Source: Planctomycetaceae bacterium (GTDB taxonomy: Bacteria > Planctomycetota > Planctomycetia > Pirellulales > Thermoguttaceae). Taken from it: a stretch of 53,275 bases of DNA. The stretch is from contig WRKP01000014.1 in the NCBI GenBank assembly GCA_009778035.1, positions 1 through 53,275 of the forward strand, written 5' to 3'. Positions 14,701-52,791 of the stretch are shown here, piece after piece (position 1 is the first letter of the stretch; every line of letters starts with the position of its first letter). The translations under genes were made by a program, and so were the position numbers. The notes under the pieces were generated by a model, which saw only the letters and a program-made list of their open reading frames with translations, was not told the origin of the DNA and made no database searches.

Positions 14701-15424
14701 AAATCTATTAACGGGATTGTTGTTTTCGCCCCTCTGTTCCTCTAAACTCTTTATCACAAAAGATATTATGCAAAATCCAGGTCTTTATGGCAGTGTATGG
14801 CGGGTTAGAGGAAACTATGGCAAAACAATGGGGATTTCAGTGTCAGTGCGATCCAAACTTTGACAACGAGTGCCGGAAAGTGTCAGTTTTCCTCTCCCAT
14901 ATTTTCTCACCTGCCGTTTCACGCCTAAAAAGCCATTACATACCTGAAAATACGGCACCAAACCACTTGTCTCGCCGGTTGTGAAATCCCTATTTACTCC
15001 ATTTTACCGTCCATTCCAGTGATTCCATTGCCAACAGATCCTTTGGAAACGTTGAAGCATAAATTTATTCTACTTTGCTTTTTCCAGCGAATAGTAATTC
15101 TACTTGCAGCTCGGGAAGCAATGGTCATCTACTTGCATTTTGCGACGCTGCTCTATATACACCGTCTTCAATACTGTAATGTGCAAGAAGAATACGTACA
15201 CCAACTGGAAGTCTTCACGAGCGATCTCATTGTGCTAGATGGATTTCGCTTTGCGGTCGAGTGCAAGTCGGTGAAGAAAGACGTTGATTTACTCGATCAG
15301 CCCGCATTGCTAGACAAGTTTTTATAACAGATGAAGGAGGATTCGGAGTCTATTGACAAATTACCGATGCTCTTCTGGAAATTAAGCAGCCGGATTTTTG
15401 GTTCAACGACAGCGGAGAACTGGA
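14701..15424. other. AT-rich decayed region
   Basis: No intact gene. A 102-codon open frame at 15019-15327 resembles no family I recognise, although its last part (DLIVLDGFRFAVECKSVKKD) looks like an old coding sequence. A 23-bp exact direct repeat occurs at 15070-15092 and 15481-15503. The hexamer CTACTT recurs at 15070, 15100 and 15129. Confidence 0.5.
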
Positions 15425-15615
15425 TGTATGATTGCAATGAAAAAAGTAGTTATAGGAAACAGCACGTTGTATTGCGGCGACTACTTTGCTTTTTCCAGCG
15501 AATCTACTTATCAAAGCCAACGCAGTGATCAGCGATCCGCCGTTCGAAATTACTGCTTGCGATTGGGTCGTAGCCTTGCATGATTTGGGAATCGAACCGG
15601 AGGCGAAGCGACTCG
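15425..15615 (+). pseudogene. remnant of a DNA methyltransferase N-terminus
   Basis: One frame encodes MKKVVIGNSTLYCGDYF and, after a frame change at about 15490, KANAVISDPPFEITACDW. This is the start of an N4/N6 DNA methyltransferase with a DPPF catalytic motif. The rest of the enzyme is gone. The 23-bp direct repeat lies across the break. Confidence 0.6.
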
Positions 15616-16025: not shown

Positions 16026-16837
16026 GAGAGTGTTGACATAAATATAGATATTATTATACTGTCCTAGTAATTCAGAACTTTTTATGGGAGATCACTTCAT
16101 GTTAGCCTGTAAAAAATGTGCCAGCCAACAGTTTGCAAAAAAATGGAATCGTTTTAGGAAAACAACGATACAAGTGCAAAGATTGCAACGCCACTTTCCG
16201 TGAAGGCGATAATCGCACCAATGAAAAAATCATCGCTAAAAAGGCACTCTGCATCCTTCTCTATGCCATGGCAAAAGGCTCGTTTCGCATGCTCGGAAAA
16301 ATCCTAAATGCCTATCGCACATTGGTTTACAGATGGATGAGAGAGTTCGGAACATCACTATCCGAACCGACGGTTTCTGAAGAAATCCAAGAAATGGAGT
16401 TTGATGAGATATGGCACTTTATCGGTCAAAAAAAGAAAACTTTGGCCAATTAAATGGACAGCGAAAGTAGTTGATAGTAGTAGAAGGCGAACCGTGGCCT
16501 GGGTGCTCGGCAATCGTGCTACTGCAACGTTCCAACGATTGTACGATAAGGTAAAACACTTGGCGGATTGCACATTTTACACGGACAAATGGGAGGCATT
16601 TGCGAAGGTATTGCTGGCGGAAAGGCATGTCATAGGCAAGGCTCATACGGCTTGTATTGAGCGAGACAATAGCAACACAAAATGTCGCTTAAATCGTTTT
16701 GTGCAAAGGGCTAAGGTCGTGTCGAAGTGTGAAAAGATGGTGGATTCTTCTTTACGAATTTGGCATGCTGTTACGACAAGCGAACTGTTGGAGAAATTGC
16801 AAGAAAAATTGATGGCTATATTTAGGTGAACACTCTC
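16026..16837 (+). mobile_element. IS1-family insertion sequence, 812 bp
   Basis: The ends are 18-bp inverted repeats with 16 matches: GAGAGTGTTGACATAAAT at 16026-16043 and the complement of ATTTAGGTGAACACTCTC at 16820-16837. Size and transposase match the IS1 family. The similarity may extend a few T/A bases outward. A clear target-site duplication was not found, though ATTCA occurs on both sides. Confidence 0.8.
16099..16829 (+). pseudogene. IS1-family transposase split by two +1 frame breaks
   Basis: Three frames must be joined. The zinc-finger start LACKKCASQQFA begins at ATG 16099. After an A7 run at 16137-16143 the protein continues as KNGIVLGKQRYKCKDCNATF and the helix-turn-helix region. 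After a second A7 run at 16428-16434 it continues as RKLWPIKW, VAWVLGNR, FYTDKWEAFAKVL, GKAHTACIERDNS and KVVSKCEKM, the DDE half. Removing one A from each run restores one continuous protein of about 240 residues. This is either decay, sequencing error in homopolymers, or slippage-dependent expression. The stop lies within the right inverted repeat. Confidence 0.75.
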
Positions 16838-48500: not shown

Positions 48501-50300
48501 TTACCGCGCCCGTGCCGGCATTGTTCCCGTCGTTCCCGATGTCGTGCCCGTCGTCGCATCAAGCACTTTCGTTCCACGTATCTGCTCCGCATCCGGCGGT
48601 GCAAATATGTTAATGCTGCCAAATATCTCAATCGTTACCGCATCAGGCCCGAAATCTACATCATTCGAACTGCCCCGGCCAAAACCACGGCCGCCACTCC
48701 CCCCGCTGCTTCCCCCAAACGAATCACCACGCGAACGAGTTGGCCGGCTTCCCATCCCGCCCATACTTCCGCCCATTCCCATCCCGCTGGAGTCTCCCAT
48801 ACTGCCGCCCATTCCCATACCCCCTGAAGTTCCGGTACTCGCCACGAAATGAAACGGCTGCGTGGCATCGGGATTGATCGTTACCCACAATACATTGATC
48901 GGCATCGGACAATTCGCACAATTTACGAGCACATCGGAAATGTAGCGTTGGTTTACGACCAATCGAAGATATATCGGCATTCTGCGGATGTGTTCGGTCA
49001 AATCCGGGTCCATGAGCGGCTGTCCTGCTTCATCAACATAGCGTCCCCTCATCGCAAAAGCCAACAGCATTTCAGGCGTCGGTCCCGTGGACATTCCCAT
49101 CCCGCTGCTGTCTCCCATCCCCATCCCGCTGCTCATACCGCTCATTCCCATTCCGCTGGTGTCTCCCATTCCGCCGCTCATTCCGCTCATCCCGCCGAAC
49201 ATACCCATCCCCATCCCGCCGCCCATTCCCATCCCGCTGGAGTCTCCCATTCCGCTGCCCATTCCCATACCGCCCATCCCACCCATCGTGATTCGTCGGC
49301 TTGCTTGGCGGAACAATTCCATCGCAGCCCGTTGCCCGATGGAGATGTCAACAATTTCCTTCACCACGGATTCTCTCAAATTGAGCGGCGGCAAACCCGT
49401 TCCCGTTCCCGTTCCAGACCCGGCACTCATCCCACCGGCTCCGCCCTGACCGCCCCGGGTGTTCATCCTCGTTTGTTCCCGAACGTATCGATTGGATTCC
49501 GCAACCACCCAAAGCAGTGCTTGATAAACCCAAAGGTCTTCCTGGGTCAGCCAAACCTCAAACGCGTGCGGCCGCTGCTGCCAATTTTTCAGGGTAATAT
49601 CCAATGAGGGATTATCCCAAACAACGGTTCCCCGCAAAAAAGTTATGTCGGCGGCCGTTGCGGTTCGTCCGCTGGTTCCCGTACTCATTCCCATCCCCAT
49701 CGAATCGCCGCCGCGTGATCGGCTAAATCCGTCGCCCCCTCCTCTGCTGCTGGAATCGGCCAGCGAAAGCCGTTCGAGCGGCTCGACGTTTCCGTTGGGT
49801 AAACGGCGGAATTCTTGAATACGTCGAAGCCGCAAATCCGCTTCGCCGGAACGGGCAAAGTTGCGGTCCAGCATTCGGTTGATTTCCGCTTGGGCAAAAC
49901 TGAGATAGTTATCCAAGGTTGCTCCTGTGAGCGGTCCGAGAAAGGGTTGGCTTTCAATATCCCGGGTTGCGGCGGCGGCAAGGCCGGTCCAACGATTTTG
50001 TTCGCGTTGGTCATTGACCATAGCGGACCAGGCGGCATAGACATTATCGGCCAGCAGTTCCTTTTTTTCATTGATGGAGTCGATTGTTCCTTGGTTCGGA
50101 TGGGTTGAGGCACCGCGTTGGAGCGTATCTATGGCGGTTTTTTGAGTTTCCAGCAGTGTTGTTTGACTGCTTAATTCGTCGGCGATGGCTCCGATGGCCA
50201 TCCAGGCGGCAACGATGGCGGCGGCCAATCCTAGTGGAGTGCAAGTCCAAAAAGTGTATGACTTTAGGGCTTCCATATTGAATTCTGTTTTTCTTGCCAT
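48501..50300 (-). CDS. membrane protein with Gly/Met/Ser low-complexity repeats
   Basis: 599 residues from the ATG at about 50300, with GGAG upstream; the longer frame crosses a repeat. One membrane helix near the N-terminus (TPLGLAAAIVAAWMAIGAIA), a coiled-coil-like stretch, and two folded periplasmic parts (about 80-300 and 410-490). They are separated by two tracts of repeated GM, SGM, GDSSGMGMG units (about 315-410 and 490-560). Topology resembles the neighbouring PilO-like protein, so both may belong to one envelope machine, but no family was identified. The Met-rich tracts are unusual and might bind metal or simply be flexible. Confidence 0.72.
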   Translation of the reverse strand: MARKTEFNMEALKSYTFWTCTPLGLAAAIVAAWMAIGAIADELSSQTTLLETQKTAIDTLQRGASTHPNQGTIDSINEKKELLADNVYAAWSAMVNDQREQNRWTGLAAAATRDIESQPFLGPLTGATLDNYLSFAQAEINRMLDRNFARSGEADLRLRRIQEFRRLPNGNVEPLERLSLADSSSRGGGDGFSRSRGGDSMGMGMSTGTSGRTATAADITFLRGTVVWDNPSLDITLKNWQQRPHAFEVWLTQEDLWVYQALLWVVAESNRYVREQTRMNTRGGQGGAGGMSAGSGTGTGTGLPPLNLRESVVKEIVDISIGQRAAMELFRQASRRITMGGMGGMGMGSGMGDSSGMGMGGGMGMGMFGGMSGMSGGMGDTSGMGMSGMSSGMGMGDSSGMGMSTGPTPEMLLAFAMRGRYVDEAGQPLMDPDLTEHIRRMPIYLRLVVNQRYISDVLVNCANCPMPINVLWVTINPDATQPFHFVASTGTSGGMGMGGSMGDSSGMGMGGSMGGMGSRPTRSRGDSFGGSSGGSGGRGFGRGSSNDVDFGPDAVTIEIFGSINIFAPPDAEQIRGTKVLDATTGTTSGTTGTMPARAR

Positions 50301-50607
50301 GGCTATTCTCCGGGAATTTTTTTGGGGATTTTGGGTAAAAGTTTCCGCTTTTTCGGGGCGGTCTCTATCTTGACGTTGCCTATTGTATCGCACATTGCGG
50401 AAGAAAGCAAGGCACGGTTGCGAGCCGAGTGCAAGTTTTGCAAGAGTTGCGTGTGCAAGAGCGGGGGACGTAAGCCCCCCGCCGTTTTCCGCCCCTTGTG
50501 CTACGCTGCATCGCGTTGTATCTCCTTGCAAAATATGCACTTCCCGCATTGCTCAAATTGAACGCAACACCGTACACAACGCCAAAACACGCCCCATCGC
50601 ATGGGTT
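50301..50607. repeat. intergenic stretch with a family 3-like repeat
   Basis: At 50453-50495 GCAAGAGCGGGGGACGTAAG, CCCCCCGCCGTTTT resembles family 3 half-sites. Otherwise no gene, promoter or RNA was recognised here. Confidence 0.5.
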
Positions 50608-50919
50608 TTAGCATGTAGCAAAATCCTCATCCAAATGCTGACGATAATGCCGTTCCATCACATCCGCCGTGTGGCCGATCCAAAGCAACTCCTTCGTCTC
50701 GCCCCAACGCCGCAGTATTTCATTGCTCCGACTCCGCCGCATCTTCCGAAATGGACACGCAATCTTGCCCAAACCGGCATCATCCGAAATCTTATGAAAC
50801 TGGTCATTCAGACTCCACGCCGTGCCCTGATACCCCTGCACCACAAACTCATTTTCGTTGTCCGAAAAATGGTTTTGCAATTCTACTCGCACATTTTGTA
50901 AAACTTCGTCCAGTGTCAT
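50608..50919 (-). pseudogene. C-terminal remnant of a tyrosine recombinase
   Basis: 103 codons from ATG 50919 at most. The segment KMRRSRSNEILRRWGETKEL, LWIGHTADVMERHYRQHLDE holds the conserved Arg, the GH and the nucleophile Tyr of planctomycete integrases. The N-terminal arm-binding and core-binding domains are missing; only about the last 100 residues remain. The promoter of the divergent small gene starts within two bases of this frame, marking the breakpoint. Confidence 0.75.
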
Positions 50920-50948
50920 TTGGCAATCCGAAAACAAGATAGTAGAAT
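50920..50948 (+). promoter_or_regulatory. sigma70-like promoter, leaderless
   Basis: TTGGCA at 50920-50925, a 17-base spacer and TAGAAT at 50943-50948. The ATG of the next gene begins at 50955, exactly where transcription would be expected to start, with no Shine-Dalgarno sequence. Confidence 0.75.
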
Positions 50949-50954
50949 AATAGC

Positions 50955-51242
50955 ATGACTGACACAAAAACACAATCACGCAAAAAACGTTCTACATCCA
51001 AAGATGACACAAAGAAAGTAGTATCGCTATCTGTATATCAGACACTGCTCAAAAGCATTGATAAATATGCCGCAGAAGAAAATGTATCCCGTTCAGTGGC
51101 AATCGAACACGCGATCATAAAAATGTTTGCAGAACCGGCAAGTAGTCCATTGACACTGGATGAATTGCCGAATGATTTTATGCAAGACAACAATGAAAAC
51201 CTATATGCCTCGCCACAACTGGGACAGTCGATATTCTATTGA
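50955..51242 (+). CDS. small ribbon-helix-helix-like protein
   Basis: 95 residues. A basic N-terminus (TKTQSRKKRSTSKDDTKK) precedes KVVSLSVYQTLLKSIDKYAA, EENVSRSVAIEHAIIKMF, which has the strand-helix-helix pattern of RHH/CopG-like DNA-binding proteins. The C-terminal tail is acidic and unassigned. It diverges from the integrase remnant and converges on the clamp gene, with a shared terminator between them. It could be the regulator of the accessory module. Confidence 0.6.
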   Translation: MTDTKTQSRKKRSTSKDDTKKVVSLSVYQTLLKSIDKYAAEENVSRSVAIEHAIIKMFAEPASSPLTLDELPNDFMQDNNENLYASPQLGQSIFY

Positions 51243-51282: not shown

Positions 51283-52032
51283 CTAAAACAAACTCCGTGC
51301 CGCAAACATGTTGGCGAAATGCTTATTGCTTGACAAGTCGCTATCCGTAATGGACAAAATAGTAAAACCTTGACCGTTACTTTTCTTACAACAGAGAGCC
51401 GGAATGTGATAGACAAAACCGCTATTCCATTCCATAAAAACAATTTTACCTCGCTTGTGCGATTTTAATATCCGCTCTGTGTATTCTTTTTGTATTGCAA
51501 GCCGTCTGCCATCTGTTGCAACGGCAGTGATTACATCTTCATTGGGAGAATCTTTTGCCATTTGACATTCAAAACAGACACCAGCAAGTGTGAAGCGTGC
51601 ATTGTTTTCGTCAACGGCAAAAATCGTATGCCGAATCATTCGTTGCAATTCTTCTTTCGGAATTTTATGATAAGACTTTGCCGTAAATTCTTCAACGTCA
51701 GGCATGTTATCAGGACATTGTAACGAAAACTCCCATTGTCCACACCCTTCTCCCCGCATGACAATTTTATCATTTTTAACTTCTAGCCAGAGCATATCCT
51801 GTTTAGATTGCGAAAGAATGTTAACGATTTCCTTTATTGGCAGTAGCACCGCACCTTTGCGTGCTACTTCGCAATCAAAACGAATGCGGATACCATGCTT
51901 GCCATCCGTTGCATGTATGACAGTGCCGTGACGTTTGTCTGCTAAAATCTTTATGTTCCCAAGATGGCTCGTTATGTTTTTTGCCAATCGAAGTTTCGGC
52001 AATAGGTCTTTTCGCTCAAATCTGATTTTCAT
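51283..52032 (-). CDS. two-domain sliding-clamp (DnaN) paralogue
   Basis: 249 residues with RBS AAAGGAGA. It matches the first two domains of bacterial beta clamps: an N-terminal domain (1 to about 118) with AVLLPIKEIVNILSQSKQDM, and a second (about 119 on) with ARFTLAGVCFECQ and the strongly conserved VATDGRRLAIQ. Normal DnaN has about 370 residues and three domains; the third, which carries much of the partner-binding pocket, is absent and the last 60 residues are atypical. Clamps encircle DNA and tether polymerases. A mini clamp loader lies directly upstream in the same direction. It may be a mobile-element clamp or a truncated copy. Confidence 0.8.
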   Translation of the reverse strand: MKIRFERKDLLPKLRLAKNITSHLGNIKILADKRHGTVIHATDGKHGIRIRFDCEVARKGAVLLPIKEIVNILSQSKQDMLWLEVKNDKIVMRGEGCGQWEFSLQCPDNMPDVEEFTAKSYHKIPKEELQRMIRHTIFAVDENNARFTLAGVCFECQMAKDSPNEDVITAVATDGRRLAIQKEYTERILKSHKRGKIVFMEWNSGFVYHIPALCCKKSNGQGFTILSITDSDLSSNKHFANMFAARSLF

Positions 52033-52045
52033 GGTAAAGTCTCCT

Positions 52046-52078
52046 TTGGGTTAGTGCGCATCTTCAGCGCAGAGTTTA
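52046..52078 (-). promoter_or_regulatory. shared leader element, copy 1 (clamp gene)
   Basis: On the minus strand CTGCGCTGAAGATGCGCACT, then AACCCAAAGGAG just before the clamp start: a GCGC/GCGC mini-hairpin followed by an ACYAACC block and the RBS. A matching element precedes the clamp-loader gene. Confidence 0.6.
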
Positions 52079-52104
52079 ATGTTGGTGCGTTTCGGATGAT
52101 ATAC

Positions 52105-52140
52105 TACTTTACTGCTCCGAAACATAAACAGCAAAGTAGT
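52105..52140 (-). other. hairpin between clamp-loader and clamp genes
   Basis: A 12-bp stem on the minus strand (ACUACUUUGCUG against CAGUAAAGUAGU, one G-U pair) a few bases after the clamp-loader stop. There is no U-tract, so it may be an RNA-processing or partial termination site. Confidence 0.55.
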
Positions 52141-52146
52141 GTATTA

Positions 52147-52791
52147 TTATCCCGCTATCGGAATGTCATTATCTTCTATAAAATCCCAAGCGGCCCGTAC
52201 AGACTTTACCGCAATTTTTCGATACATATCCGTGATATAATCCATCGTTACGTATGTGAAAAATTCGTTAAACTCTTCCGAAGTAATTTCCAGTTTGCAT
52301 TTTATGCACCGAGTCACCAATTCATCCCAATGCTTTTTCTGTCCATCGGATAACTCATCTTTTCTTTTGGCCGATGTGAAAATCACCGTAACATAGCAAG
52401 GCAACTCTTGACGTCGACGGCGGTCAATAGCGTCGATAGTCGTTTTGAGTTTTGTGATATTGTTCACGCTCAACTTGTCGGCCTCGTCAAAGATATAGAC
52501 ATACTTGTCGGCAAGTAGCGGACGCGAGTATATGTCTTGCTTGAGCATGTCTATGAACGTTGCCGTTTCGGCATCTTTGGTGCAATCGGGCCGATAGATT
52601 TCGTGATTGCCACTCTCTGCGATGATGTCCGCAATGAGCGTTTTGCCGGTGCCGGTTGTGCCGGTTAGCATAAACACGAGTCCGCCGAGCCCTTCATTCA
52701 TTTGGATGGAGCGTTCGATTTTCGTTATGGCTTGTTTGTTGCCTATAATCTGCGATAGTTTCGTCGGTTGGTATGTGTCGATAAGTTTCAT
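52147..52791 (-). CDS. mini clamp-loader-like AAA+ ATPase
   Basis: 214 residues. The N-terminus YQPTKLSQIIGNKQAITKIE is typical of DnaX/RFC small subunits. Walker A is G44-T-T-G-T-G-K-T51, Walker B is D102-E-A-D105 (YVYIFDEAD), sensor 1 is in VIFTSA, and a T-R-C segment (LVTRCIKCKLEI) matches the SRC arginine-finger motif of clamp loaders. It lacks the C-terminal collar domain of DnaX. With the adjacent clamp paralogue this suggests a self-contained loader/clamp pair. The RBS region is CGGAACTCC. Confidence 0.82.
   Translation of the reverse strand: MKLIDTYQPTKLSQIIGNKQAITKIERSIQMNEGLGGLVFMLTGTTGTGKTLIADIIAESGNHEIYRPDCTKDAETATFIDMLKQDIYSRPLLADKYVYIFDEADKLSVNNITKLKTTIDAIDRRRRQELPCYVTVIFTSAKRKDELSDGQKKHWDELVTRCIKCKLEITSEEFNEFFTYVTMDYITDMYRKIAVKSVRAAWDFIEDNDIPIAG

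Follow-up and report, generated by a model that had tools for sequence, protein, structure and literature searches.

Sliding clamps close into rings of two architectures, as set out in PMC4858162: bacterial clamps are dimers of three-domain subunits, and PCNA and T4 gp45 are trimers of two-domain subunits. In the normal beta-clamp dimer, residues of domain I pack against residues of domain III (PMC11139829). The AAA+ proteins of clamp loaders (DnaX/gamma, the RFC small subunits, T4 gp44 and phrog_168) have an ATPase domain and lid with Walker A and B motifs, a TRC arginine finger and sensor 2, and a collar, usually the part that forms the pentamer. A survey of jumbo phages reported RFC-like loaders, with one subgroup in which no clamp was detectable (PMC7824862). 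Searches of open-access papers returned no title or abstract that describes DnaN-type clamps together with a mini loader lacking a collar.

The window analysed here is a 53,275-nucleotide stretch, contig C14 of a metagenome-assembled genome (G000; 76 contigs, 75% complete) that its gene content and a named relative place among the planctomycetes. Close to one end it encodes a 249-residue clamp-like protein and, on the same strand and 114 bp away, a 214-residue AAA+ protein (Table 1). A sequence-only reading had correctly picked out these adjacent ORFs. It took the clamp to consist of domains 1 and 2, proposed that three subunits would form a PCNA-like ring, and suggested that the pair could be a minimal processivity module of a mobile element.

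Results

The clamp ORF is homologous to bacterial DnaN, with which it shares the complete fold of domain 1, and its residues 1-193 are 45% identical to the DnaN of the same genome. Domain 1 gives a weak match to PF00712 (1-105) and is recognised in full (2-125, E 6e-26) by a local domain-1 HMM, one of a set built from host DnaN sequences; in alignments it is about 6 residues shorter than the host DnaN near the first helix. Domain 2 does not bear out the earlier assignment. The match to PF02767 covers only profile positions 2-55 of 116, that to the local domain-2 HMM only positions 1-69 of about 120, and the tail that follows is predicted to be disordered. No significant match to the local domain-3 HMM was found in six frames. 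An AlphaFold model, computed with 20 viral and window sequences, has pLDDT values of 89-97 in domain 1, about 80 in the half domain 2 and 26-49 in the tail, with residues 196-234 and 239-249 below 50. We also considered whether the tail might represent a diverged domain 3, and Pfam, the six-frame local HMMs and AlphaFold gave this no support. Foldseek matches to the model are bacterial beta clamps, with TM-scores of 0.55-0.64 by query length.

Judged by its sequence, the window clamp is about one and a half clamp domains. It does not have the two complete domains per subunit of a PCNA-like clamp, nor the three domains of DnaN (PF00712, PF02767, PF02768); descent from DnaN is indicated by the tree of the second genomic copy described below. 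Its likeness to PCNA and T4 gp45 is confined to polypeptide length, and the ORF matches DnaN. Compared with DnaN, it lacks the whole of domain 3 and one half of domain 2, and neither the dimer interface nor a full binding cleft would be expected. The partner-binding cleft of a clamp is built partly from the very parts of domains 2 and 3 that are lost here. We infer that the window clamp cannot form a ring, because the head-to-tail interface and much of the cleft would have gone with those domains. Domain 3 provides half of the dimer interface (PMC11139829), and the fragment should therefore not close.

Table 1 Features of the locus and of related loci (window coordinates unless a locus is given)
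Feature	Position	Strand	Basis or remark
Hybrid ORF: the start of a phage gene (MTLDEVLQNVRV), whose continuation is present in C29 and L167, fused to a recombinase-like fragment	50608..50979	-	
Ribbon-helix-helix (RHH) regulator, convergent with the clamp	50955..51242	+	PF01402; also in C29 and the phage contig
Clamp ORF, 249 aa	51283-52032	-	beta-clamp homology
Clamp C-terminal tail, aa ~187-249, in the same frame as the C29 tail	51283..51471	-	no clamp-domain homology; predicted disordered
Clamp deletion junction, 606 bp absent relative to C29	51472..51480	-	alignment with C29
First half of clamp domain 2, aa 119-184, includes VATDGRRLAIQKEY	51481..51678	-	PF02767; alignment to host DnaN and C29
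Clamp domain 1, aa 1-118	51679..52032	-	PF00712, local domain-1 HMM, AlphaFold, alignments
Mini AAA+, 214 aa, clamp-loader ATPase domain and lid	52147..52791	-	phrog_168/5846, phmmer, AlphaFold/Foldseek
PDDEXK_2 (Rpn-like) nuclease, 3' part, at contig end	52882..53275	-	PF12784, E 1.7e-19
C29 copy of the cassette	L026 3917-6032		compared with window 51283-52791
Phage module, two DnaN-type clamps flanking a collarless mini AAA+	L167 3664-8378		
Mini AAA+, 213 aa, in a prophage of Planctomycetes GWF2_50_10	L094 10001-10642		beside genes reading as terminase and portal

The description of the neighbouring protein as a collarless clamp-loader ATPase was confirmed by alignments and a structural model. 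It has Walker A (GTTGTGKT, residues 44-51) and Walker B (FDEAD, D102-E103) motifs, a TRC arginine finger of the S/T-R-C type at residues 160-162 and a sensor-2-like SVRAAW with R199. It shares these motifs, the ATPase domain and the lid with the known loaders, from which it differs in lacking the C-terminal collar for pentamer assembly: it stops at residue 214, past the lid, and its phage relative has the same end point. Profile matches are to the clamp-loader families phrog_168/5846, and phmmer finds the RFC small subunit and DnaX. The AlphaFold model (mean pLDDT 83.5) has RFC, DnaX and T4 gp44 as its best Foldseek matches.

G000 contains the cassette twice. The other copy, on contig C29, is about 94% identical in DNA and comprises a PDDEXK_2 nuclease, an AAA+ protein 97% identical to that of the window, a clamp and the RHH gene. 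The two clamps share 90% amino-acid identity over residues 1-199. Base-by-base alignment reveals that the window lacks, with the reading frame kept, 606 bp (202 codons) that in C29 follow the first half of domain 2 and precede the tail. The segment encodes an acidic linker and the rest of domain 2, which aligns to the host DnaN. Since C29 holds the rest of domain 2, the difference is a deletion in the window, and an insertion in C29 was rejected. In C29 the segment has a copy of the short repeat GAGCGG at either end (5232 and 5834), an arrangement consistent with deletion between such repeats. On these alignments, the window clamp gene is an in-frame internal deletion of a C29-type gene and its PCNA-like length is an accidental product of that deletion. 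The reading frame of the C29 clamp shifts by +1 where domain 1 ends. The clamp spans PF02767 in full (2-116 of 116), and the local HMMs detect a domain 1 split by the frameshift and domain 2 over positions 1-120; an acidic tail is present, whose resemblance to that of phage clamp A (best E 0.04) is too slight for any relationship to be claimed. Neither PF02768 nor the local domain-3 HMM detects a domain 3 in it. The host's own three-domain DnaN lies on contig C42.

Between the two copies the AAA+ gene has 30 nucleotide and 6 amino-acid differences (dN/dS 0.06), against 27 nucleotide and 14 amino-acid differences over all parts of the clamp, whose parts have dN/dS values of 0.44, 0.34 and, in the tail, 0.23. 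The proportions of amino-acid-changing and silent differences differ between the genes (Fisher p 0.015, small numbers, amino-acid differences counted as replacement changes). The AAA+ protein looks intact and constrained, and constraint on the clamp looks relaxed relative to it. The in-frame deletion and the near-identical tail leave room for some selection on the shortened product.

The pair was found together outside this genome. A viral scan with a clamp alignment recovered IMGVR_UViG_3300006045_000025 (L112/L167), in which the gene order is tyrosine recombinase, ArdC-like protein, clamp A, mini AAA+, clamp B, RHH (on the minus strand) and a small gene. Among the genes of the contig are those for a terminase large subunit, primase, helicase, DNA methyltransferase and integrase, a gene content that we read as that of a temperate phage. 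Common to the window and the phage are the mini AAA+ (52% identical), the RHH protein (40% identical, E 2e-16) and the small downstream gene, which in the phage is the same as in C29; the order AAA+, clamp, RHH on the opposite strand and small gene is conserved in C29 and the phage. The same gene association thus occurs in a recognisable phage. Unlike the window clamp, clamps A and B each have all three domains by local HMMs and Pfam (PF02768 just under the cut-off), and clamp A has in addition an acidic tail of about 435 residues. These relatives encode full three-domain clamps at the corresponding locus, the result that the sequence-only reading had itself named as refuting its interpretation.

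In a tree of clamp domains 1-2, the C29 clamp pairs with phage clamp A (UFBoot 100) and clamp B joins them at 98; the group stands next to the DnaN of G000, within the DnaN clade of the host genus. Because of this placement, the phage clamps most likely come from this host lineage, which suggests that a phage acquired the sliding clamp of the lineage it infects and now carries it in two versions. In the phage, clamp A is encoded upstream of the AAA+ gene, but in the window genome the clamp is encoded downstream of it; position and tree therefore point to different phage clamps as the ortholog. Only one intact phage relative was found. Nearly all other viral clamp ORFs recovered also match domain 3; the three without any domain-3 match (L130, L156 and L159) run off a contig end. 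Used as single queries in viral scans, neither the clamp of the window, nor that of C29, nor the C29 loader recovered a relative; the phage module came up only with the clamp alignment, and tblastn of the loader against named phages returned no match.

With a clamp query, none of 100 related genomes other than G000 gave more than one clamp, and no independent occurrence of the truncated form was found among them; a query with the C29 mini AAA+ gave no close relative elsewhere in the family, of which 119 genomes were searched. A phylum-wide search did find short, apparently collarless relatives of the AAA+ protein in planctomycete mobile elements, one in a prophage (L094) and others beside ArdC-like genes (L045 and L046; more distantly L085-L088), similar in length and domain content. 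Two of them aligned to the window protein at 31% and 24% identity. No clamp gene was found near the mini AAA+ in the prophage or the ArdC-linked stretches, and the clamps of those genomes are located elsewhere. Because such relatives occur with no adjacent clamp, the pairing, which is real in the phage and in G000, is not obligatory for the AAA+ family. A contig scan with aligned mini AAA+ sequences yielded a single clear case in a prophage (L094) and a truncated relative from a planctomycete (L109); its other matches were AAA+ proteins of greater length. Two matches were discarded as mini loaders: a C. difficile plasmid record with chromosomal-type genes, in which the match is a full dnaX gene (545 aa), and phage Pan1, which has a loader of normal length (309 aa). 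Another planctomycete genome has a second, diverged clamp gene (G301 C409:5585-5917), with its mini AAA+ genes on other contigs.

The DNA match between the window and C29 ends at about 50879, inside the hybrid ORF whose fragment reads by eye as the C-terminal end of a tyrosine recombinase (HTADVMERHY) and has no Pfam match. On the other side, the PDDEXK_2 nuclease gene is multicopy in G000, with copies on C29, C62 and C3. A complete prophage does not surround the module in the 75% complete assembly of G000; only remnants adjoin it, the recombinase fragment among them. Elsewhere in the window, a low-GC stretch at 14929-15580 has fragments of the same phage lineage: a partial PDDEXK_15 phage endonuclease, 64% identical over 42 aa, and a short stretch that matches the start of a DNA methyltransferase. 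ORFs at 16118-16829 read by eye like an IS1-type transposase remnant, and 48501-50549 holds a 682-residue ORF with long Gly-Met-Ser repeats (GMGMGGSMGDSSGMG) and no Pfam match.

Discussion

We propose, with a probability of roughly 0.87, that the locus is a decayed fragment of the replication module of a planctomycete temperate phage. The sequences show that the module of the related phage comprises clamp A, the collarless mini AAA+ and clamp B, both clamps being derived from the DnaN of the host genus. They also show two copies remaining in G000: that on C29 has kept domains 1 and 2 and the acidic tail, frameshifted and with no domain 3, and the window copy lacks a further 606 bp, so that it retains domain 1, the tail and half of domain 2. 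During phage growth, the mini AAA+ may help to open or load clamps A and B, and together they could give phage replication a dedicated processivity factor. Having no collar, the AAA+ protein would need to assemble into another kind of oligomer or become part of the host DnaX complex. The window AAA+ may still be made and active. The proposed origin in a processivity module of a mobile element therefore stands as to descent, given the same association in a temperate phage. A working module in the window is unlikely, because the phage primase was not found in the host assembly (75% complete) and only a recombinase fragment adjoins; what is left is a remnant.

A true bacterial clamp of two domains, assembled as a PCNA-like homotrimer and served by a mini loader of its own, would account for the length of the ORF and for the adjacent clamp-loader-type ATPase, and the C29 copy, if its frameshift is ignored, does have complete domains 1 and 2 with no detectable domain 3. 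However, the second half of domain 2 is absent from the window ORF and is held by C29, most of the last 54 residues are predicted to be disordered, the C29 copy is frameshifted, both phage relatives have three domains, and the other viral clamps nearly all match domain 3, the exceptions being truncated by their contigs. We regard such a trimer at this locus as very unlikely. It is also highly improbable that the C29 lineage, with complete domains 1 and 2 and an acidic tail, functioned under selection as a two-domain bacterial clamp until the frameshift arose; if true, a DnaN-derived ring built with no domain 3 would have existed alongside a collarless loader.

Decay of a phage module also has to be weighed against retention of the fragment for another purpose. 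The truncated clamp might serve as a decoy or small regulator, in the form of a dominant-negative piece of domain 1; alternatively, the mini AAA+ might act on the host clamp, with the clamp fragment incidental. The in-frame deletion, the low dN/dS of the tail, the well-conserved AAA+ and the clamp-free mini AAA+ genes of other planctomycete elements (the prophage by the terminase gene, the ArdC-linked loci) would fit. Against this, constraint on the clamp is relaxed compared with the AAA+, and the truncated form did not recur independently in the 100 related genomes; we consider this explanation unlikely. An assembly error is another candidate cause: in a MAG that is 75% complete in 76 contigs, the 606-bp deletion and the C29 frameshift could both be assembly errors, and a real three-domain or C29-type clamp might have been collapsed from two similar copies, the contig ending at repeated nuclease genes nearby. 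The copies nonetheless differ by about 6%, private substitutions flank the junction on either side, and the short GAGCGG repeat coincides with the junction, as expected of a real deletion. We give collapse little credence.

Reading the locus as a decayed phage module removes a claimed PCNA-like bacterial clamp and offers a better target, a temperate planctomycete phage in which two host-derived three-domain clamps flank a collarless clamp-loader-type ATPase. The question it raises is whether a collarless AAA+ protein opens or loads a clamp alone or plugs into the host DnaX complex. A minor observation concerns the two copies in G000: synonymous divergence between them is 0.20 in the AAA+ gene, about twice the 0.07-0.09 of the clamp, and this inequality suggests past recombination between the copies.
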